Source: Hyphomicrobiales bacterium | GTDB lineage: Bacteria > Pseudomonadota > Alphaproteobacteria > Rhizobiales > Beijerinckiaceae | Assembly: GCA_900470775.1 (NCBI GenBank) | Contig: UCBZ01000042.1 | Coordinates: 1 to 64,000, forward strand | Length of the DNA stretch: 64,000 bases | Direction: 5' to 3' | Shown here: positions 2,071-19,726 of the stretch, piece by piece | Numbering within the stretch: position 1 is the first letter of the stretch | Layout: every line of letters starts with the position of its first letter | Notes under the pieces: model-generated | The model's database searches: none | The model's input: only the letters and a program-made list of their open reading frames with translations | What the model was told of the DNA's origin: nothing | Made by a program: the position numbers and the translations under genes

Positions 2071-2546
2071 GGGATCACTGTCCTCGCTTCTAGTGGGAAG
2101 GAGGACGGATACCGGGCTTGCGTTGGCGGGCTCGCAAAGAAGCCTTCGCGGGAGTAGGGCATCGTTCCAAAGGGCAGGGTGGGATGATACAAAGTCTCGG
2201 ACGATAGGCTTGAAATCCTAGCTTTCATATCGAACATCAGCCCGGCTGGCGATCCAACCTAGATCCTGGATGAGTGCGTGATGTGCGCTGGGTGGCGGTA
2301 CTTTTCGAGGTCGGTCACGCTAGTTGGTGAAACGTCAGAATTTTCTTTGCGGGAATTTTCCCTTTAATATCAATACCGTAGTTTTTTAGCGGCCCGAGCG
2401 GCGGCTTTTCAAGCTGAATACAAGAAAAAACCCTGCTAGGTCAATCATCTAGGAGGGCGGAGAACAATCGAGTGGGAGTGAGGGAGAAAAGGCGGCAATA
2501 GCGTAGGTTTGGCGGTGGGTTCTGCTGCTCCACAATTGGCGTTCTA
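2071..2546. other. gene-free accessory DNA
   Basis: No open frame in this stretch resembles a known protein. Base composition is locally more AT-rich than the rest of the window (for example around 2335-2430), which suits a foreign or decayed segment. I see no tRNA, integrase or clear attachment site. Confidence 0.5.
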
Positions 2547-2807
2547 TTGGGTTCTCACGCTGCTGAACTGGCGTTTTCAAAGCTTTCAGGGATCGTCAGT
2601 TGCGAGGCGGCGTCGGCAGTGCCGCATTTCCACGCCAAGAAAGTGGCCGAGGATCTGATCAAGGCCTCCGGGGTGCCATACGTGTTTGTCCGCGCGCCTA
2701 CATTTCTCGATCAAAGCGCGGACATTATTGCGAAGGGTGTGAAAGCTGGCCGGTTTGTGGCGGTTGGCGATAATATCTCGCCAAAGCCGCGAGGTTTCTG
2801 GCAGTGA
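2547..2807 (+). pseudogene. fragment of an NmrA-like NAD(P)-binding reductase
   Basis: The open frame codes for 86 residues. The middle resembles the second half of NmrA-type atypical short-chain reductases: AVPHFHAKKVAEDLIKASG followed by VPYVFVRAPTFLDQ. In intact members this follows a Rossmann domain of about 100 residues, and another 100 or more follow it. Both are missing, and no continuation appears in other frames nearby. I read it as the decayed remnant of a roughly 300-residue reductase. It lies between an IS and a tandem repeat, consistent with local rearrangement. Confidence 0.6.
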
Positions 2808-3236
2808 GATCGACTACCAAACGATCGATGTCGGCTGGAGTGATGGCCCCAAGAGCCAGCAAGAGATCACACTACGTTTCGAACATTTCGAAGCAAGAGC
2901 ACTTTTTCGGGCCAGCGCCTGCACCTCGATATGCGATCACGCGGTGGGCGAAGAGTCATCAATTAATACCCTGACCCAATCCGGAAATTAATACCCTGAC
3001 CCAACCCGGACGAGATCGGGGTCGCAGGGTGGCAGGAAGAGGGACCAGGCGGCCAGATTGGGCATCGTGGTTTGGCCCGCGCCGGTTTCGTGGAGGGGGG
3101 GCTCGTTCACCTGCGCGGGACAAGCCCCGACCGATCCCACCGTCGAGCTCCTCGATCGGATACAGGCTTGCCTTGCCGATCTTGACGGATGACGGGCCCC
3201 TCCTCATCGATCGCCAGTTGCGACGTGTGCCCTGGC
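2808..3236. other. gene-free stretch between the reductase fragment and tetR
   Basis: No recognisable gene. Short open frames occur on both strands, but none has family motifs or a convincing start. The one feature seen is the 24-bp tandem repeat at 2961-3009. Confidence 0.45.
2961..3009. repeat. two direct 24-bp repeats, one base apart
   Basis: Units 2961-2984 and 2986-3009 are identical except for one base near the end; both contain AATTAATACCCTGACCCA and end in CCGG. The placement in remnant DNA suggests duplicated ends or scars of a mobile element, but no partner transposase is present. Confidence 0.7.
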
Positions 3237-10952: not shown

Positions 10953-12074
10953 ATGGGCAAGACAAGAAAATCGGTCATTGCGGCGGGGGGCGTCCTGTTC
11001 GCGGCGGCGGCGGTCGCGGGATTCGTCGCGCTGTCGGTGCGCCCGCAGCAGGCTTCGGCCGTCGGAGACCCGCGACAGGCCGCGCCGATCGTCAGGCTGG
11101 CGACGCCCACGCCTGTCGTCGCATCCGAGCGCCGCTTCACCGGCACCGTCGCCGCCAGGGTGCAGAGCAATCTCGGTTTCCGCGTTCCCGGCAAGATCGT
11201 CGAACGGCTGGTCAATGTCGGCCAGCCCGTCACGGCCGGTCAGGCACTGATGCGGATCGACGAAACCGATCTGCGGCTTGCGCTCACCGCCAAACGCAAC
11301 GCGACGATCGCGGCGCGTGCCGTCCTGGCTCAGGCGAAGGCGGACGAGAAGCGCTATGCGGTTCTGGTTAAGGACGGTTTTGCCGCTAGTCCGCAGCGCT
11401 ACGAACAGGCAAAGGCGGCACTCGACACCGCCGCCGCACAACTCGCCGCGGCGGAAGCGGAGGAGAAGGTCGCCGAGAACGGATCGGGCTATGCCGTTCT
11501 GGCCGCCGACGTCGACGGGATCGTGGTCGAGACGCTTGGTGAGCCCGGCCAGGTCGTCACGGCCGGCCAGGCCGTGATCCGGCTTGCCCAGGCGGGCCCG
11601 CGCGAGGCGATCGTGGCACTGCCGGAAACCGTCCGGCCTGCCATCGGCTCGACGGCCTTCGCCAATCTCTATGGCACGGAGGCCCGCCGCCATACGGCCA
11701 CGCTGAGGCAGCTGTCGGATTCCGCCGATCCTCTGACGCGCACCTATGAAGCGCGCTACGTCCTCGACGGCGAGGCCGCGGCGGCTCCGCTCGGAGCGAC
11801 CGTGACCATCCGGCTGGCCAACCAGGCGAGCCAGCCGGAAATGGAAGTACCGCTCGGAGCGGTCCTGGACGACGGCCGGAAGACGGGTGTCTGGCTCCTC
11901 GACGAAGCGTCGTCGACGGTGCGGTTCCGCGCCGTCAGGCTTGTGCGGGTGACCAACGAGACCGCCGTCGTCTCCGGGCTCAGCGGCGGCGAGCCGGTCG
12001 TTTCGATCGGAGCGCATCTTCTGCGGGAAGGCGCCCGCGTCAGGACCCTCTCGCAGAGCAAGGCCAGCAAATGA
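10953..12074 (+). CDS. RND efflux periplasmic adaptor subunit (MFP/HlyD type)
   Basis: A membrane-fusion protein of 373 residues. An N-terminal membrane anchor or uncleaved signal (about 7-27) is followed by the first lipoyl half (FRVPGKIVERLVNVGQPVTA), an alpha-hairpin rich in Ala, Lys and Glu (about 105-175), the second lipoyl half (VDGIVVETLGEPGQVVTAGQ) and beta-barrel segments. No lipobox Cys is seen. It should couple the inner-membrane pump encoded next to an outer-membrane channel. Its stop overlaps the pump start (ATGA). No TolC-type gene follows, so the channel must be encoded elsewhere. Confidence 0.92.
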   Translation: MGKTRKSVIAAGGVLFAAAAVAGFVALSVRPQQASAVGDPRQAAPIVRLATPTPVVASERRFTGTVAARVQSNLGFRVPGKIVERLVNVGQPVTAGQALMRIDETDLRLALTAKRNATIAARAVLAQAKADEKRYAVLVKDGFAASPQRYEQAKAALDTAAAQLAAAEAEEKVAENGSGYAVLAADVDGIVVETLGEPGQVVTAGQAVIRLAQAGPREAIVALPETVRPAIGSTAFANLYGTEARRHTATLRQLSDSADPLTRTYEARYVLDGEAAAAPLGATVTIRLANQASQPEMEVPLGAVLDDGRKTGVWLLDEASSTVRFRAVRLVRVTNETAVVSGLSGGEPVVSIGAHLLREGARVRTLSQSKASK

Positions 12075-15000
12075 GCTTCAATCTCTCGGCGATCGCCGTT
12101 CGCGAACGCGCCGTCACCCTGTTCGCGATCCTTCTGCTCGTCGCGGCCGGCGCCTTCGCCTTCATCATGCTGGGCCGGGCGGAAGATCCGAGCTTCACCA
12201 TCAAGACGCTGACGGTCACGACGGTCTGGCCGGGCGCGACCGCGCGTGAAATGCAGGACCTCGTCGCCGAGCCGCTGGAGAAACGAATCCAGGAGCTGAC
12301 CTGGTACGACCGGGTCGAAACGACCACCCGTCCGGGCTACGCCTATATGACGGTCACGCTCAAGGACAGCACGCCCCCATCCGCCGTTCAGGAGGAGTTC
12401 TACCAGGCCCGCAAGAAGCTCGGCGACGAGGCCCGCAACCTGCCACCAGGCGTGGTCGGCCCCTTCGTCAACGACGAATATTCGGATGTGAGCTTTGCCC
12501 TCTATGCGCTGAAGGCCAAGGGCATGCCGATGCGCGAACTGGCGCGGCAGGCCGAAACCATCCGCCAGGACCTGCTGCACGTGCCTGGCGTCAAGAAGAT
12601 CAACATCCTCGGCGAACGGCCGGAACAGATCTTCGTCGAGTTTTCCTTTGCGAAGCTCGCGACGCTGGGTCTATCGGCGCAGGACATCATCACAGCCCTG
12701 CAACGGCAGAATGCCGTCACCCCGGCGGGTTCGATCGACACGAACGGGCCGCAGATGTTCATCCGGATCGACGGCGCCTATGCCGGTTTGAAGACGATCG
12801 CCGATACGCCGATCGTCGCTGCCGGGCGCAGCCTGAAGCTCTCCGACATTGCCGAGGTTCGGCGCGGCTATCAGGACCCCCCGACCTATCTCATCCGGCG
12901 GCAGGGCGAGCCCACGATCCTGGTCGCAGCCGTGATGCAGGCGGGCTGGGATGGGCTGGCGCTCGGCAAGGCGCTCGAGAAGAAGACCGCTGACATTGCT
13001 GCGATGCTCCCGCTCGGCATGACGCTCGACAAGGTCACCGACCAGGCCGTCAACATCAGGTCGGCAGTCGACGAGTTCATGATGAAGTTCGCCATGGCGC
13101 TCGGCGTCGTGCTGCTGGTGAGCCTGCTCAGCCTCGGCTGGCGCGTCGGCCTCGTCGTGGCGGCCGCGGTTCCGCTGACGCTTGCGGTCGTGTTCCTGAT
13201 CATGCTCGAGACCGGCCGCTTCTTCGACCGGATCACGCTGGGCGCGCTCATCCTGTCGCTGGGCCTGCTCGTCGACGATGCCATCATCGCCATCGAGGTC
13301 ATGGTGGTGAAGATGGAAGAGGGCATGGACCGCATCAAGGCGGCCGCCTATGCGTGGAGCCATACGGCCGCGCCGATGCTGTCGGGCACGCTCGTGACCA
13401 TCGCCGGCTTCCTGCCCGTCGGGTTCGCCCGGTCGACGGCGGGCGAATATGCCGGCAACATCTTCTGGGTCGTCGGGTTTGCCCTGATCGTCTCCTGGAT
13501 CGTCGCAGTGGTGTTCACGCCCTATCTGGGCGTGAAGATGCTGCCCGACATCAAGCCCGTCGCAGGCGGCACGCATGCGATCTACGACACGCCGAACTAC
13601 CGGCGCCTTCGGGGGCTGATCACCTTCGCCGTGCGCCACAAATTCACGACCTGTGTCGTCGTCGTCGTCGCGTTCGCGCTGTCCGGCATCGGCATGGCCG
13701 GTGTCAAACAGCAGTTCTTCCCGACATCGGACCGGCCCGAAGTGCTGGTGGAAGTGCGTCTGCCGGAAGGCACCAGCATCGAAACCACGACCGCCACGGT
13801 CGAAAAGCTCGAACGCTGGCTGGGCGGCCAGCCCGAGGCGACGATCGTCACGAGCTATGTCGGCCAGGGCGCGCCGCGCTTCTTCTTCGCCATGGCGCCG
13901 GAACTGCCGGATTCCGCCTTTGCCAAGATCGTCGTCCTGACGCCCGACGCCGAGAACCGCGAGGTCTTGAAGCACAGGCTCCGCGAAGCCGTATCCCAGG
14001 GCCTGGTCCCGGAGGCTTTCATTCGCGTCACGCAGCTCGTCTTCGGCCCCTACACGCCGTTCCCGGTCGAGTTTCGCGTGATGGGGCCCGATCCCGCCGA
14101 GCTCTATGCCATCTCCGAAAAGGCCCTGGAGGTCATGCGGGGCGTTGCCGATGTCCGGCAGGCCAATCGGGACTGGGGCAACCGCACGCCGGTGCTTCGC
14201 TTCGTTCCCGACCAGGACCGGCTGAACCTCATTGGCCTGTCGCCTGCAGCCGTCGGCCAGCAGCTGCAATTCCTGCTCACCGGGGTGACCGTCACGCAGG
14301 TTCGCGAGGACATCCGCAATGTCCCGGTGGTGGCGCGCAGCGCGGGCAGCGAACGGCTCGACCCGGCGCGTCTTGCGGATTTCTCGCTGACGAGCCGCGA
14401 CGGTCGCCAGATTCCGCTCGACCAGATCGGTCATTCCGAAATCCGTCTGGAAGAGCCCATCCTGAAACGCCGCGACCGGACGCCCGTCATCACGATCCGG
14501 ACCGACATCAACGAGGCGACGCAGCCGCCGGAGGTCTCCAAGCAGATCATCACGGCCCTGCAGCCGCTGATCGCAGCGCTTCCGGCAGGCTATCGCATCG
14601 AAACCGGAGGATCGATCGAGGAGGCCGGCAAGGCCAACGCTGCCCTGGCTCAAATCTTTCCGGTGATGATCGCGGCCACACTGATCGTCATCATGTTCCA
14701 GGTGCGGTCGTTCTCAATGATGGTGATCGTGCTGCTGACGGCGCCGCTGGGGGTGATCGGCGTCGTCCCGACCCTGCTCATCTTCAATCAGCCCTTCGGG
14801 TTCAACGCCATCCTGGGCCTGATCGGACTGGCCGGCATCCTGATGCGCAACACGTTGATCCTCACCGAGCAGATCGAGGAGAACCGTGCCGCCGGCCTCG
14901 ACGACTATAACGCCGTCATCGAGGCGACGGTGCAGCGGACGAGACCCGTGATCCTGACGGCGTTGGCCGCCGTGCTCGCGTTCATTCCGCTCACGCACTC

Positions 15001-15181
15001 CGTCTTCTGGGGATCGATGGCCTATACGCTGATCGGCGGCACGGCGGTCGGCACCGTGTTGATCCTGCTGTTCCTTCCCGCGCTCTACATTGCGTGGTTC
15101 CGGATCAAGCCGCGTGCCGACGAGAACGATGAGGTCGCGACGGAGCGAGTTGAGCCGCGAACCGCAATGGCTGCTGAGTAG
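12071..15181 (+). CDS. RND-family efflux pump permease (AcrB/AcrD/AcrF type)
   Basis: A protein of 1036 residues, the normal size for a proton-driven RND exporter. TM1 lies near residues 12-32, followed by a large periplasmic domain, TM2-6 near 335-480 with the proton-relay motif LSLGLLVDDAIIAIEVMV, a second periplasmic domain and TM8-12 near 855-1015 (NAILGLIGLAGILMRNTLIL). Only the drug/organic-compound branch fits; the heavy-metal branch motif is not seen. Substrate is unknown. It is co-transcribed with the adaptor (4-bp overlap) behind the TetR operator. Confidence 0.93.
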   Translation: MSFNLSAIAVRERAVTLFAILLLVAAGAFAFIMLGRAEDPSFTIKTLTVTTVWPGATAREMQDLVAEPLEKRIQELTWYDRVETTTRPGYAYMTVTLKDSTPPSAVQEEFYQARKKLGDEARNLPPGVVGPFVNDEYSDVSFALYALKAKGMPMRELARQAETIRQDLLHVPGVKKINILGERPEQIFVEFSFAKLATLGLSAQDIITALQRQNAVTPAGSIDTNGPQMFIRIDGAYAGLKTIADTPIVAAGRSLKLSDIAEVRRGYQDPPTYLIRRQGEPTILVAAVMQAGWDGLALGKALEKKTADIAAMLPLGMTLDKVTDQAVNIRSAVDEFMMKFAMALGVVLLVSLLSLGWRVGLVVAAAVPLTLAVVFLIMLETGRFFDRITLGALILSLGLLVDDAIIAIEVMVVKMEEGMDRIKAAAYAWSHTAAPMLSGTLVTIAGFLPVGFARSTAGEYAGNIFWVVGFALIVSWIVAVVFTPYLGVKMLPDIKPVAGGTHAIYDTPNYRRLRGLITFAVRHKFTTCVVVVVAFALSGIGMAGVKQQFFPTSDRPEVLVEVRLPEGTSIETTTATVEKLERWLGGQPEATIVTSYVGQGAPRFFFAMAPELPDSAFAKIVVLTPDAENREVLKHRLREAVSQGLVPEAFIRVTQLVFGPYTPFPVEFRVMGPDPAELYAISEKALEVMRGVADVRQANRDWGNRTPVLRFVPDQDRLNLIGLSPAAVGQQLQFLLTGVTVTQVREDIRNVPVVARSAGSERLDPARLADFSLTSRDGRQIPLDQIGHSEIRLEEPILKRRDRTPVITIRTDINEATQPPEVSKQIITALQPLIAALPAGYRIETGGSIEEAGKANAALAQIFPVMIAATLIVIMFQVRSFSMMVIVLLTAPLGVIGVVPTLLIFNQPFGFNAILGLIGLAGILMRNTLILTEQIEENRAAGLDDYNAVIEATVQRTRPVILTALAAVLAFIPLTHSVFWGSMAYTLIGGTAVGTVLILLFLPALYIAWFRIKPRADENDEVATERVEPRTAMAAE

Positions 15182-15264: not shown

Positions 15265-15319
15265 ATGTCGGTTGACATCAAAATGAGAATGCGGCCAATA
15301 TGTCGATACTAATCGACAT
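15265..15319 (+). promoter_or_regulatory. ars promoter with ArsR-type operator
   Basis: A consensus -35 element TTGACA lies at 15272-15277. A perfect palindrome, ATGTCGAT-ACTA-ATCGACAT (15300-15319), covers the expected -10/start region and ends 6 bp before the arsC start. A shorter ATGTC-N4-GACAT palindrome overlaps the -35 (15265-15278). This suits ArsR repression that is relieved by arsenite. Which ArsR binds is not known. Confidence 0.65.
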
Positions 15320-15325
15320 AACGAG

Positions 15326-15853
15326 ATGATGGCCATGACTCGCGCGCCGCTGAACGTCCTCTTCGTCTGTACCGGCAATTCCGCCCGCTCGATCATGGCG
15401 GAGGCCATCATGAGCCGCGTCGCGCCCGGCAAGTTCAAGGGTTACAGCGCCGGCAGCGATCCGAAGGAGGAGATCAACCCCTTCGCCGCGCGGCTTTTGA
15501 AATCGCTGAACTATGACATCTCGCAGTTCCGTCCGAAGAACTGGGAGGAATTCGCCAGGCCGGGTGCACCGGAGCTCGATTTCGTCTTCACCCTCTGCGA
15601 TGACGCCGCCAACGAGCCGTGCCCTTACTGGCCTGGCCAACCCATGAGCGCCCATTGGGGCCTGCCCGACCCGGCCGCCTTCGTCGGCGATGACGTGCAG
15701 AAGGCCCTTGCCTTCGCCGACGCCTACCGGATGCTCAACAACCGGATATCGACCTTCGCCAGCTTGCCCTTGGCGTCCCTTGAAGGGGTCGCGCTGCAAC
15801 GCCGGCTCGAATCGATCGGCACTGACGCCGGCAAGACGGACCACGCCGCTTGA
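15326..15853 (+). CDS. arsC: arsenate reductase, LMW-phosphatase fold
   Basis: A protein of 175 residues of the low-molecular-weight phosphatase family. It has the P-loop CTGNSARS (catalytic C15 counted from the first Met), the general-acid motif WGLPDP near 111-116, and a second Cys pair, C91 and C99. This matches thioredoxin-coupled ArsC enzymes, in which three cysteines relay electrons while arsenate is reduced to arsenite; the pair spacing (seven residues between) is one longer than in the plasmid pI258 enzyme as I recall it. There are alternative starts (MMAM). It heads the ars operon, and its stop overlaps the next start. Confidence 0.88.
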   Translation: MMAMTRAPLNVLFVCTGNSARSIMAEAIMSRVAPGKFKGYSAGSDPKEEINPFAARLLKSLNYDISQFRPKNWEEFARPGAPELDFVFTLCDDAANEPCPYWPGQPMSAHWGLPDPAAFVGDDVQKALAFADAYRMLNNRISTFASLPLASLEGVALQRRLESIGTDAGKTDHAA

Positions 15854-16731
15854 ACAATCGCCTCGAAGCGCCGGCCGCGGTGGATCTGCTGGGTGCACTC
15901 GCCCAGCCGACGCGGCTGGAGATCTTCCGCCTGCTGATGCGCTACCGGCCTCACGGGCTCGCCGCCGGCGATATCGGCCGGTTGCTGGCGGTCGCGCACA
16001 ATACGCTCTCGACCCATCTTGCCGCGCTGGAGCAGGTCGGTCTGCTGGCATCGCGGCGCGAAGGCCGGCATGTCATCTTCGCGGCGGCGCCGAGACGGGC
16101 TGACGCATTGCTCGGCTTTCTCGCCGACGCCTGCTGCAGCGAGCGCCCGACCAGATGCGACACCGCAGCCTCCGCCTATCCTTCACGGAAGGAGCCGCGT
16201 GCCACCGACGCGCCCCTTCGCGTGCTTGTCGTCTGCACTGGCAATTCCGCTCGCTCGGTCATGGCGGAGGCGGTGCTCAACCGCGAGGGGCTGGGCCGCA
16301 TAGAGTCGTTCTCGGCGGGCAGCCGACCGCACGAGGCGCCGCATCCGCTCGCGCTCGGTCTGCTTGACGAGCTCGGATACGAGAGCTCCGGCTTTCGTTC
16401 GAAATCCTGGGACGAGTTCCTGGCTCCGGGCGCACCGAAGCTCGATCTTGTCATCACCGTTTGCGATGCGGCGGCTGACGACGCTTGCCCCGCCTTCCCG
16501 GGAACTCCCCTGCAGGTGCATTGGGGCCTCGATGACCCGGCCATCGTCGAGGGGCCGCTCGAAGCGCGCCGTGCCGCATTCCGCAAGAGCTACCGCAACC
16601 TGGCCGCCCGCGTCTCCGCCTTCGTCAACCTGCCATTCGAAGAGATGACACTGACCGAACTCGCACCGCTGCTCGCCGCGATCGGGCGGATGGATGGCGC
16701 TACCGATCGATCCCTGGAGCAAGCAGCATGA
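15850..16731 (+). CDS. ArsR-ArsC fusion: ArsR repressor domain plus LMW arsenate reductase
   Basis: Two domains make up 293 residues. Residues about 8-95 are an ArsR winged helix (LLGALAQPTRLEIFRLLMRY, with recognition helix NTLSTHLAALEQVG), followed by cysteines C95, C96 and C103, a likely arsenite site. Residues about 122-265 are a complete LMW-phosphatase ArsC with CTGNSARS (C129), the Cys pair C205/C213 and WGLDDPA. The protein could both sense the product and reduce the substrate. It starts with TTG overlapping the previous stop (TTGA) and overlaps the next gene by 4 bp, so the operon is translationally coupled. Domain calls are firm; the coupled function is inferred. Confidence 0.88.
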   Translation: MNNRLEAPAAVDLLGALAQPTRLEIFRLLMRYRPHGLAAGDIGRLLAVAHNTLSTHLAALEQVGLLASRREGRHVIFAAAPRRADALLGFLADACCSERPTRCDTAASAYPSRKEPRATDAPLRVLVVCTGNSARSVMAEAVLNREGLGRIESFSAGSRPHEAPHPLALGLLDELGYESSGFRSKSWDEFLAPGAPKLDLVITVCDAAADDACPAFPGTPLQVHWGLDDPAIVEGPLEARRAAFRKSYRNLAARVSAFVNLPFEEMTLTELAPLLAAIGRMDGATDRSLEQAA

Positions 16732-17183
16732 GCCACGACCCCGCCACCACCGATGTGGTGATCTATCACAACCCGGATTGCGGCACTTCGCGCAACACGC
16801 TGGCGCTGATCCGCAATGCTGGCGTCGAACCGCATGTCGTCGAATACCTCAAGACCCCGCCGAACCGGGCGTTGCTGACCAGGCTGCTCGCGCGCATGAA
16901 CCTGCCGCTGCGCGCGATCCTGCGCGAGAAGGGCACGCCCTTCGCCGAACTCGGCCTCGGCGATTCCGCCATCAGCGACGAGACGGTCTGGTCGGCCGTT
17001 GCCGCGCATCCGATCCTGATCAACCGACCGATCGTGATCACGCCCTGGGGCGTCGCCTTGTGCCGGCCCTCGGAAGCGGTGCTCGACATTCTGCCGCTGC
17101 CGCAGCTCGGCCCGTTCGACAAGGAGGACGGCGAGCCGCTGATCGATGGGCATGGCCGTCGCGTCGCCGCATCGGCGGCCTGA
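16728..17183 (+). CDS. arsC: arsenate reductase, glutaredoxin-dependent (ArsC/Spx fold)
   Basis: A protein of 151 residues of the thioredoxin-fold ArsC family, unrelated to the two LMW-type enzymes before it. The catalytic Cys is C18 in HNPDCGTSRNT. The arginines that bind arsenate are visible in LLARMNLPLRAILREKG and in NRPIVITPWGVALCRPSE. It reduces arsenate with glutathione and glutaredoxin in the cytoplasm. Its start overlaps the fusion gene by 4 bp, and the aquaporin gene follows after 3 bp. Having two ArsC folds in one operon suggests use of both thioredoxin and glutaredoxin pools. Confidence 0.92.
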   Translation: MSHDPATTDVVIYHNPDCGTSRNTLALIRNAGVEPHVVEYLKTPPNRALLTRLLARMNLPLRAILREKGTPFAELGLGDSAISDETVWSAVAAHPILINRPIVITPWGVALCRPSEAVLDILPLPQLGPFDKEDGEPLIDGHGRRVAASAA

Positions 17184-17186
17184 GGC

Positions 17187-17849
17187 ATGAAACAATCGCT
17201 TTCCATCCGCCTGCTGGCGGAAGCGCTCGGCACCGGCATCCTGGTCGCGACCGTCATCGGCTCCGGCATCATGGCGACCAGGCTGTCGCAGGACGTCGCG
17301 ATCCAGCTGCTCGGCAACACGATTCCGACCGGCGCGATCCTCGTCGTGCTGATCACGATTCTCGGGCCGGTCTCGGGCGCGCATTTCAATCCGGCGGTCA
17401 GCCTCGTCTTCGCGCTCAGGCGCGAGCTGCCCTGGCGCGAACTCGCGCCCTATGCGTTGGTGCAATGCCTCGGCGGCATCGCCGGCACGGTGATCGCACA
17501 TCTGATGTTCGGGCTGACGCCGCTGATGATCGGCACGACCGCGCGGACCGGCGCCTCGCTCTGGCTGGCCGAGGCGGTCGCGACCTTCACGCTCGTCCTC
17601 GCCATTCTCGGCTCGCTCAAGGCGCGGCCGGAGAGCGTGCCGCTGATTGTCGGCCTGACCATCACCGCGACCTACTGGTTCACCGCCTCGACTTCCTTCG
17701 CCAACCCGGCGGTGACGCTGGCGCGCGGTTTCACCACGAGCTTTGCCGGCATCGCGATCGAGCATGTGCCGGTATTCGTTCTGGCGCAGATCGTCGGGGC
17801 GCTGGTTGGGTTGGCGGTGGCCGGAGCCTTGTCGTTCAATCGCAGCTGA
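17187..17849 (+). CDS. aqpS: aquaglyceroporin of the ars operon (AqpS-like)
   Basis: A MIP-family channel of 220 residues with six membrane spans and the two pore motifs NPA at 68-70 (GAHFNPAVSL) and 173-175 (FANPAVTLARG). In Sinorhizobium meliloti an ars-linked AqpS carries arsenite out of the cell down its gradient in place of an ArsB or Acr3 pump; the same role is likely here, as neither pump gene is present. It is the last gene of the operon and begins 3 bp after arsC. A terminator-like hairpin follows. Confidence 0.88.
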   Translation: MKQSLSIRLLAEALGTGILVATVIGSGIMATRLSQDVAIQLLGNTIPTGAILVVLITILGPVSGAHFNPAVSLVFALRRELPWRELAPYALVQCLGGIAGTVIAHLMFGLTPLMIGTTARTGASLWLAEAVATFTLVLAILGSLKARPESVPLIVGLTITATYWFTASTSFANPAVTLARGFTTSFAGIAIEHVPVFVLAQIVGALVGLAVAGALSFNRS

Positions 17850-17956: not shown

Positions 17957-19357
17957 TCAGACTTCGGCCGCCTCGCGATTTTCGCCTTGAACGGGACTGC
18001 AGCCGCAACCCGTCTCGCCGGCGGCCTTCGCTTTCGCGTCGTCGGCGCAGCAGGCATCGACCGAGACCGGAGCGGGACCGCCGCAGCAGCTCGTCTTCGC
18101 CTGGCTTGGCCCCCGCGGCGTCGAGCTGCATACCCCGGTCTCGGGCAAAACCAGCTCGACGCGTCGTGCTGCGGCGTGGTCGCCGGCAAGCTCGGCGACG
18201 ATCGAGCGAACCTGCTCATGACCGGTCGCGAGCAGGAAGGTCGGTGCGCGGCCGTAAGACTTCATGCCGGCGATATAAAACCCGGGTTCGGGATGAGCGA
18301 GTTCGACCGCGCCATGCGGCCGAACGGTGCCGCAGGAGTGAATGTTGGGATCGATCAGCGGCGCCAGGCTCGGCGGACATTCCAGAGCGGGGTCGAGCGC
18401 GACGCGCAACTCGCGCAAAGGGCTCAGGTCCGGGCGGAACCCTGTTGCGACGACGAGCTCGTCGACCGTCACGGTCTGGTTGCGCGCGTCGTCAGAGACG
18501 AGCCGCAGCCCCGCCTCAGCTGGCTCGATCCGATCCAGCTGGAAGCCGGTGAGGGCGTGAATCCGCCCCTGTCTGACGAGCTCGGCAACCTGCAGGCCGA
18601 GATCGCCGCGCGCCGCCAATTGGTCGGCAGCGCCGCCGCCAAAGGCCTTTGCCAGAATCGGACCCCGATAGAGCCAGGTGATCTCCGTCGAGAGCGTTGC
18701 CGCCTGCAATTGCGACAATGCGATGAGGGTGCCGATGGCCGAATGCCCGCCGCCGAGCACTGCGATGCGCTTGCCGGCATAGCGCCACCGGGCTTCGCCC
18801 AGGGCATTCGGCATGCCGTAGCTGATGCGTGCCGACGCCTCGGACTCACCCGTCGCCGGAATGCCGCCGGCGCCAGCCGGGTTCGGCGAGAACCAGGTGC
18901 CGGAGGTGTCGATCACAGCGTCGGCGGTGAGCTTCGCAATCGCCTTGCCGTCGCGATAGCGAACCAGAAATGGCGCCGTCGCGCGTCCGGCGCTCTTCAC
19001 CTTGTCGAAGCCGACGCGCGAGACCGAGATCAGCTCCGCGTTGAGCCTGATGTGATCGCGCAGGATCGTCTGCTCGGCGAGGGGAGCGACGTAGTCCGAG
19101 ACGAGATCGCCGCCGGTTGGATACCGGTCCGCATTCGGCCGCGTCCAGCCCGCCGTCACAAGGAGGCGCTCTGCCGCCCTATCGATGTTGAAGGCCCAGG
19201 GCGAGAACATCGGCACATGCGCCCATTGCTGAATGGCATGTCCCGCGGACGGGCCTCGCTCCAGGACGATCGGGGAGAGGCCGCGCTCCAGGGCATGGGC
19301 TGCCGCCGCAAGGCCGACCGGACCGGCTCCAATAATCGCGATCGTTGTGATTGCCAT
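17957..19357 (-). CDS. ars-linked FAD/NAD(P) flavoprotein with Cys-rich C-terminus (ArsO-like)
   Basis: A flavoprotein of 466 residues. The N-terminal FAD motif is IIGAGPVGLAAAAHALERG, a second dinucleotide motif is AVLGGGHSAIG near 215, and ATGFRPD lies near 310. This is the flavin monooxygenase/thioredoxin-reductase-like fold of proteins found in ars clusters and sometimes called ArsO. The last 55 residues are unusual: CCGG, ACCADD and GCGC supply three Cys pairs that could bind trivalent arsenic. The start is the second ATG (19357), because GGGAGG lies between it and the first ATG at 19372. It shares direction with the arsR upstream. The reaction is unknown. Confidence 0.82.
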   Translation of the reverse strand: MAITTIAIIGAGPVGLAAAAHALERGLSPIVLERGPSAGHAIQQWAHVPMFSPWAFNIDRAAERLLVTAGWTRPNADRYPTGGDLVSDYVAPLAEQTILRDHIRLNAELISVSRVGFDKVKSAGRATAPFLVRYRDGKAIAKLTADAVIDTSGTWFSPNPAGAGGIPATGESEASARISYGMPNALGEARWRYAGKRIAVLGGGHSAIGTLIALSQLQAATLSTEITWLYRGPILAKAFGGGAADQLAARGDLGLQVAELVRQGRIHALTGFQLDRIEPAEAGLRLVSDDARNQTVTVDELVVATGFRPDLSPLRELRVALDPALECPPSLAPLIDPNIHSCGTVRPHGAVELAHPEPGFYIAGMKSYGRAPTFLLATGHEQVRSIVAELAGDHAAARRVELVLPETGVCSSTPRGPSQAKTSCCGGPAPVSVDACCADDAKAKAAGETGCGCSPVQGENREAAEV

Positions 19358-19381
19358 CTTATATCCTCCCATAAAACCGGA

Positions 19382-19408: not shown

Positions 19409-19726
19409 TCATGCGGCGCTCTGGTCGGAGGCGCAGTTGCTGTCGGCGCAGCATTCGGCCACCAGGAACGCGACAAGTTCATTCATGCGGTCGAAATTGG
19501 CTCGACAAATCAGCGTCGTGCCGTCGCGCTCCTGGCTGACGAGGCCGACGATGATGAGCGTTTTCAGATGATGCGAGAGCGTCGAGGCGGCGATTTCCAG
19601 CCGCTGCTGGCACTGCCCCACGGACAGACCGCCATGGCCGGCCCTGACCAGCAGCCGATAGAGCGAGAGCCGCGTCGGATTGCCGAGCGCTTCGAGCTTC
19701 GCGGCTGCGTCTGGTGTGTTCATCAT
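19409..19726 (-). CDS. arsR: ArsR-family arsenite-responsive repressor
   Basis: A protein of 105 residues with a winged-helix core (KLEALGNPTRLSLYRLLVRA; recognition helix ASTLSHHLKTL) and a C-terminal cysteine cluster C92, C93 and C98 (AECCADSNC). The classical CVC site on the DNA-binding helix is missing; instead the vicinal pair and third Cys near the C-terminus resemble the site of Acidithiobacillus ferrooxidans ArsR. It should release DNA on binding arsenite or antimonite. It is upstream of the flavoprotein gene on the same strand and probably regulates both ars transcripts. The start may be either of two tandem ATGs. Confidence 0.88.
   Translation of the reverse strand: MMNTPDAAAKLEALGNPTRLSLYRLLVRAGHGGLSVGQCQQRLEIAASTLSHHLKTLIIVGLVSQERDGTTLICRANFDRMNELVAFLVAECCADSNCASDQSAA

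Follow-up and report, generated by a model that had tools for sequence, protein, structure and literature searches.

The stretch of DNA analysed here, hereafter the window, comprises 64,000 nucleotides (positions 1 to 64,000 of contig UCBZ01000042.1, assembly GCA_900470775.1) from a Hyphomicrobiales bacterium, and contains a gene, arsRC, in which an ArsR domain and an ArsC domain are encoded in a single chain (Table 1). The translation of arsRC has no internal stop codon, as seen both in the list of open reading frames and in the translation itself, and its TTG start codon overlaps the 3' end of a stand-alone arsC gene by 4 bases. The gene order arsRC-arsC2-aquaporin was also found in two other loci (L009 and L013). 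The sequence-only reading of this DNA placed a stand-alone copy of each half beside the fusion, which is accurate for arsC; the stand-alone arsR is located about 2.7 kb from arsRC on the opposite strand. That reading made no reference to the second operator copy (15265-15284), nor to the glutaredoxin-type arsC and the aquaporin downstream of arsRC. Positions 15326-17183 encode three arsenate reductase domains from two unrelated families, of which two are of the LMW type and one is of the glutaredoxin type. The monooxygenase-like protein (17957-19372, minus strand) has a Cys-rich C-terminal tail with several CC and CGC motifs, as if it were metalloid-binding.

Table 1. Coordinates of the arsRC gene, its parts and its neighbours in the window.
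Feature	Position	Strand	Description
RND efflux pair (membrane fusion and pump)	10953..15181	+	Ends just upstream of the operators and arsC
Operator copy 1, putative	15265..15284	+	ATGTCGGTTGACATCAAAAT; 13/16 arm letters agree with the 15300 palindrome
Operator copy 2, putative	15300..15319	+	Perfect palindrome ATGTCGAT-ACTA-ATCGACAT
Stand-alone LMW-phosphatase-type arsC	15326..15853	+	LMWPc 56.9 bits; CTGNSAR and CDDAANEPC kept; all three redox Cys
arsRC, single-chain ArsR-ArsC fusion	15850..16731	+	One frame, 293 aa, TTG start
ArsR half, residues 1-103	15850..16158	+	Nearest solved ArsR is AfArsR (6j05)
Codons of the Cys triad	C95 16132-16134; C96 16135-16137; C103 16156-16158	+	
Linker, residues 104-121	16159..16212	+	pLDDT <50 at 104-112
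ArsC half, residues 122-293	16213..16728	+	Nearest is Deinococcus indicus ArsC2 (8p5n)
Codons of the ArsC half	C129 16234-16236; R135 16252-16254; C205 16462-16464; C213 16486-16488; D229-P230 16534-16539	+	
Glutaredoxin-type arsC (arsC2)	16728..17183	+	Second arsenate reductase family; TIGR00014 127.6 bits (cut-off 106.05)
aqpS-like aquaporin	17187..17849	+	MIP 84.4 bits; inferred to be a probable route of arsenite exit
FAD/NAD(P)-binding monooxygenase-like gene	17957..19372	-	Neighbour outside the fusion; Pyr_redox_3 59.1 bits; ArsO model 42 bits, under cut-off
Stand-alone arsR	19409..19726	-	Neighbour; its Cys triad is of the type seen in ArsRC; NF033788 63.8 bits (cut-off 55); tail VAECCADSNC

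Searches against Pfam identified HTH_20 at residues 17-68 of ArsRC (36.4 bits; cut-off 27), HTH_5 (23.9 bits; cut-off 22) and LMWPc at residues 125-258 (57.8 bits; cut-off 23.2), and HTH_metalloreg from NCBIfam matched residues 11-87 (57.6 bits; cut-off 55). The two HTH matches above their cut-offs and the match to the structure 6j05 identify an ArsR-type winged helix, and both domains of an ArsR-ArsC fusion are contained in one open frame. The score of ArsRC against the arsC_pI258 equivalog model of NCBIfam (TIGR02691) was only 65.1 bits, as compared to a cut-off of 174.3 bits, but this model seems not to cover this branch, since the stand-alone ArsC neighbour also scored below the cut-off (69.8 bits). 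By its predicted fold and residues, the ArsC half is a relative of the LMW-phosphatase arsenate reductases, and not a TIGR02691 equivalog.

The cysteines of ArsRC are residues 95, 96, 103, 129, 205 and 213. C95, C96 and C103 have the Cys-Cys...Cys arrangement of a putative arsenite site of the AfArsR type, while the ArsC half contains the CX5R loop (C129, R135), the DP motif (D229, P230) and the second and third redox cysteines (C205, C213). The description of one frame with a winged helix, a cluster of C95, C96 and C103, and an ArsC with all three redox cysteines was thus confirmed by the open reading frame, the Pfam matches and the cysteine positions. In an alignment of 23 rows, C129, R135, C205, D229 and P230 are invariant and C213 is nearly so, and S54, H56, R70 and R73 of the recognition helix and wing are likewise invariant. 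Among 57 fused proteins, which are the distinct sequences in a set of 72 fused rows, C205 is kept in all 57 and C213 in 56. A model generated with AlphaFold2 from the 23-row alignment (mean pLDDT 82.2, pTM 0.67) predicts a winged helix that closes with a helix at residues 81-98, a linker of low confidence (residues 104-112) and then the ArsC fold. When the model was compared to solved structures with Foldseek, 8p5n ranked first and the best ArsR was AfArsR (6j05), with 43% identity in the alignment; a sequence search ranked the nearest structures in agreement with this.

We searched for the same domain order in other genomes. Within the genus, 30 of 67 genomes, counting the window's own, matched ArsRC at E ≤1e-55, and every place listed spans both halves without a stop codon. 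At the same threshold, 61 of 397 genomes in the order gave a match, of which 31 (the window's own included) have one stop-free frame over both halves, 24 have a stop between or within the halves and six match the ArsC half only. Matches were also obtained in 21 of 385 genomes of the class and, at the looser threshold of 1e-50, in 41 of 398 genomes of the phylum. Fifteen Bosea-type loci in the GTDB collection carry the fusion at 74-81% identity, and several fusion proteins from members of the genus are identical to Bosea proteins over the last 250 residues, which suggests that the window itself derives from a genome of the Bosea type. The best plasmid match (78.8%) was to pB32-2 of Bosea sp. 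F3-2, in which the homologue is annotated as a single CDS (WP_149134523.1), described only as a "helix-turn-helix domain-containing protein".

These results bear on the possibility that two genes were joined by a sequencing or assembly error. Such an error would be compatible with 19 rows (including L079, L080, L081, L083, L085 and L088) in which arsR and arsC are in the same frame and split by a single stop codon, in a sample that is biased towards such cases and over-represents them. However, 27 distinct Bosea-type fused proteins were identified, the linker is 21-27 residues long in ten rows, and the fusion is a single CDS on a plasmid that is recorded as complete. Moreover, both the ArsR half (dN/dS 0.02-0.24) and the ArsC half (dN/dS 0.05-0.18) are under purifying selection, as estimated from 14 hand-picked pairs of sequences. 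A sequencing error at the junction, which was the first objection foreseen in the sequence-only reading, is refuted by the conservation of the fused form, with matches over both halves in nearly half of the genus genomes searched, and an artificial joining of two genes has a negligible probability in our estimate. The pairs that are split by one stop plausibly represent a step before or after fusion.

For comparisons across loci, we used a set of 122 distinct arsR-arsC pairs out of 138, consisting of 83 fused and 39 separate pairs, from which L001-L008, L046 (which is the window itself) and L168-L172 had been left out beforehand. The separate rows were selected as the best-scoring against a fused query, and they are therefore not a random sample of arsR-arsC pairs. 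A tree was inferred from the joined halves of 120 rows in a short search with SH-aLRT as the only support measure, and with two separate rows from one locus (L061) omitted. The window falls within a group of 36 rows, all of which are fused (support 100), and which consists of 27 Bosea-type rows, of which 26 carry the triad of cysteines, and nine sister rows that lack it; the grouping of the nine sister rows has a support of only 83. The fused or separate state changes 15 times on the best tree, but only two changes are forced by supported branches, and several origins or splits are for this reason likely, although unproven.

The palindrome noted previously at 15300-15319, just upstream of arsC, is exact, and the second putative operator copy contains a -35-like hexamer, TTGACA, at 15272-15277. 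Matches to the operator pattern with at most three mismatches were found at three places in the window, as compared to 0.31 expected: at 14489 (three mismatches, inside an RND gene), 15265 (three) and 15300 (none). In the whole genome of 5.55 Mb, 82 places match at this level, among which 15300 is the sole exact match; the next-best match has two mismatches, and there are no places with a single mismatch. A consensus scan for a sigma-70 promoter gave no site at the threshold used. We scored the upstream regions of the other loci as the number of letters out of 16 that agree with ATGTCGAT-N4-ATCGACAT. The best score was at least 12 in all 27 Bosea-type loci (window included) and in five of the nine sister loci. 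Of the remaining fused loci, 6 of 47 reached this level, as did 10 of the 39 rows with separate arsR and arsC. At least two sites with a score of 11 or higher were found in 25 of the 27 Bosea-type loci, and in L127 and L129, which are of the Bosea type but in which the upstream LMW gene was not found, one operator copy is located upstream of the fusion itself. Because separate rows also score, the motif goes with the HTH subfamily and is not private to fusions. With a score of 12 or more in 10 of the 39 separate rows, it is not a marker of the fusion and could be bound by the stand-alone ArsR, which weakens any argument from the operator that the fusion is what binds there.

The LMW gene is located just upstream of the fusion in 25 of the 27 Bosea-type loci. 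All three cysteines are present in its product in seven of these 25, including the window, while only the P-loop cysteine is left in the other 18 (CKGNHAR in 17, CKGNHSR in one). The decayed ArsC relatives, as seen in L012-L023 (e.g., L012:4441-4980), are open frames in 17 of the 18 cases; the exception is L119, in which the gene (2409-2963, minus strand) is interrupted by a stop codon and the adjacent fusion is intact. The decayed proteins may be pseudoenzymes, or phosphatases that serve a new role. Since these 18 genes lack the other redox cysteines, it is the fusion that provides a neighbouring LMW-type reductase with the complete set of three cysteines at those loci, which argues that the enzyme half of the fusion is likely to work.

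With both domains in one frame, their key residues present, a pair of operators upstream and the fused form conserved under purifying selection, we think that ArsRC is probably (at roughly 70%) an autorepressor with an arsenite site that also has a working reductase of the thioredoxin-coupled type. As the pattern of conservation suggests, the ArsR half would bind as a dimer to both ATGTCGAT-N4-ATCGACAT sites and so cover the -35 and start region of its own operon, arsC-arsRC-arsC2-aqpS, which ArsRC would in this way repress. By analogy with AfArsR, ArsRC would be released from the DNA when arsenite binds to C95, C96 and C103, where the dimerisation helix ends. The ArsC half, if it acts as the ArsC of the pI258 type, would reduce arsenate through a C129-C205-C213 relay that is probably coupled to thioredoxin.

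The presence of the separate arsR (19409-19726) points to another division of labour, in which the separate protein would bind the operator and sense arsenite, and the ArsR half of the fusion would serve only for dimerisation or anchoring. A separate ArsR with the triad is indeed found near the fusion in the window and in nine of the 15 Bosea-type loci, and the behaviour of the fusion beside a separate ArsR, a question raised in the sequence-only reading, is relevant to these loci. The arrangement is not general, however, since no other ArsR was found in the local flanks of six of the 15 Bosea-type loci (L013, L021 and L023 having short flanks), nor near six of ten loci without the triad, which are the nine sister loci and L129 (9-16 kb examined, with short flanks in two of the six). 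Furthermore, the operator pattern has no match with three or fewer mismatches upstream of or near the stand-alone arsR, and the invariance of the recognition helix and wing residues in the 23 rows also speaks against a mere anchoring role, which we regard as quite improbable.

The preferred reading of ArsRC as an autorepressor and reductase must be separated from the reason for the fusion. Because the product of the enzyme half is the ligand of the sensor half, it had been proposed that the protein might act as a self-triggered switch. The components of this proposal, a sensor half, a reductase half and an operator with the key residues, are all present and conserved, but it cannot be the general reason for the fusion, since 16 of the 83 distinct fused proteins, including the nine nearest sister rows, lack the Cys triad (present in 67), whereas the CX5R loop is kept in all 83. 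The triad is present in all 39 separate rows, and the redox pair was recovered with a regular expression in 79 of the 83 fused proteins. The Cys-Cys pair is still present in three of the 16 proteins (L142, L147 and L149) and absent from the other 13. The nine sister rows have at most one cysteine in the ArsR half and linker, but their recognition helix is HNT(L/M)STH, as in the window. In two sister pairs, the dN/dS of the ArsR half is 0.03 and 0.14, which indicates continued selection on the DNA-binding half in these rows. The triad has also been lost in L129, within the Bosea-type clade. Arsenite release by that site is therefore not indispensable to the family, given its loss in both L129 and the nine sister rows.

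Arsenite, or methylarsenite, is the ligand sensed by most of the arsenic-responsive ArsR repressors that have been characterised. The conservation of the catalytic loop in proteins that have lost the arsenite site nevertheless raises the prospect, which we consider unlikely but worth weighing, that the reductase half would be the functional input and that the ArsR-type repressor would respond to arsenate or to enzyme turnover. In the forms with a triad, arsenate would be turned into arsenite on the repressor; in those without, the ArsC half in its arsenate-bound, arsenite-bound or oxidised state would give the signal and alone control DNA binding. Such a mechanism would explain how the triad could be lost while DNA binding is retained, as the recognition helix, the operators and the dN/dS values of the sister rows suggest. 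It would also be in line with the structure of pI258 ArsC (C15A), which is described in its entry (1lju) as solved with arsenite bound, and with an ArsR from Vibrio cholerae that is thought to sense arsenate, according to the accessible text of PMC9601151. In the literature searched, no paper on an arsenate-responsive ArsR repressor was found.

The gapdh-arsJ route (arsenate export) acts on arsenate without making arsenite, and its genes are often located near the fusion. Of 81 fused rows, 49 encode GAPDH or ArsJ at a distance of no more than 1.3 kb, as compared to none of 36 separate rows (raw Fisher p 1.7e-11; 117 of the 122 rows, after removal of the L061 rows and three rows with short flanks). 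Among the 27 Bosea-type rows the number is 25, the exceptions being the window and L112. The RND pair of the window (10953-15181, plus strand) occupies the place where these 25 loci have gapdh or arsJ. The association would be expected if the fused repressor reads arsenate, but only two independent pairs differ in fusion on supported branches and it is not significant after correction for ancestry. With only two such pairs, the link is indistinguishable from shared ancestry, and we do not claim a phylogenetically safe link between fusion and gapdh-arsJ. The 1.3 kb limit also favours the contrast: the gene order arsR-arsC-ACR3-gapdh-arsJ was found in L185, L189 and L191, and because GAPDH-ArsJ lies beyond ACR3 in these loci, 0 of 36 looks too clean. 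These are three of the six loci with only a separate ArsR among 17 arsJ loci from 297 genomes of the order, as compared to seven with a fused ArsRC close by; the remaining four have neither form in the DNA examined, with L190 and L192 cut by contig ends. Nor does the loss of the triad track ArsJ, which was near 8 of 15 rows without the triad and 41 of 66 rows with it. Finally, no gapdh-arsJ match was found in the window, in which the triad is intact, and arsJ was not found in the window's genome with the query that identified it in 17 genomes of the order. We retain the autorepressor with a working reductase as the preferred reading of ArsRC.

We also compared ArsRC to previously described systems. 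The sequence-only reading suspected that ArsR-ArsC fusions occur elsewhere, and they are already in print: the available portions of PMC6205960, PMC4443643 and PMC6514093 describe them in ars clusters of Leptospirillum ferriphilum (as arsRC), Microbacterium, Sinorhizobium and Actinobacteria. Those fusions likewise have both domains in one chain but come from different lineages, and the comparison is by description only. In the actinobacteria they form two clusters, C4 and C7, according to the portion of PMC6514093 available, and arsRC transcripts of L. ferriphilum YSK are stated to change upon arsenite shock (PMC4443643, available portion). A biochemical test of an ArsR-ArsC fusion was not found in the literature searched, which was partly available and excluded most subscription journals, where one may exist. 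The ArsR-ArsC fusion is already known as a kind, and the protein described here adds a further member.

The ArsC half shares the CX5R loop, the DP motif and the two further redox cysteines with the ArsC proteins of S. aureus pI258 and B. subtilis and with ArsC2 of Deinococcus indicus (8p5n). ArsRC differs from the LMW arsenate reductases in its C-x7-C spacing, its added N-terminal DNA-binding half and its equivalog score below the cut-off; the spacing of the redox cysteines in pI258 ArsC is shorter. With AfArsR, a type 2 ArsR (6j05; 43% identity), the protein shares the winged helix and a C-terminal Cys-Cys-x(5 or 6)-Cys motif, but AfArsR is a free repressor, whereas an ArsC follows in ArsRC. 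C95, C96 and C103 occupy the positions of Cys95, Cys96 and Cys102 of AfArsR with almost the same spacing; of the AfArsR residues, the first two are reported to be essential and Cys102 not strictly needed, according to the accessible part of PMC8470949. The ArsRM protein of Brevundimonas sp. M20, reported in the available text of PMC10190100 to be active and to bind its own promoter, likewise joins an ArsR to an arsenic enzyme, which is a methyltransferase there and a reductase in ArsRC.

A further related system is the ArsR of the gapdh-arsJ (var) operon of V. cholerae, in which the arsenite motif carries a C-to-A substitution and for which the authors think that arsenate is sensed; the accessible text of PMC9601151 describes it as an ArsR repressor and makes no mention of a fused ArsC. 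How gapdh-arsJ loci sense arsenate is a question that was raised by the same authors. If ArsRC is only a bifunctional repressor and reductase, it is a tidy but ordinary domain fusion. Because the family contains relatives with and without the arsenite site, all 83 of which keep the catalytic loop, ArsRC allows a direct test of arsenate sensing.
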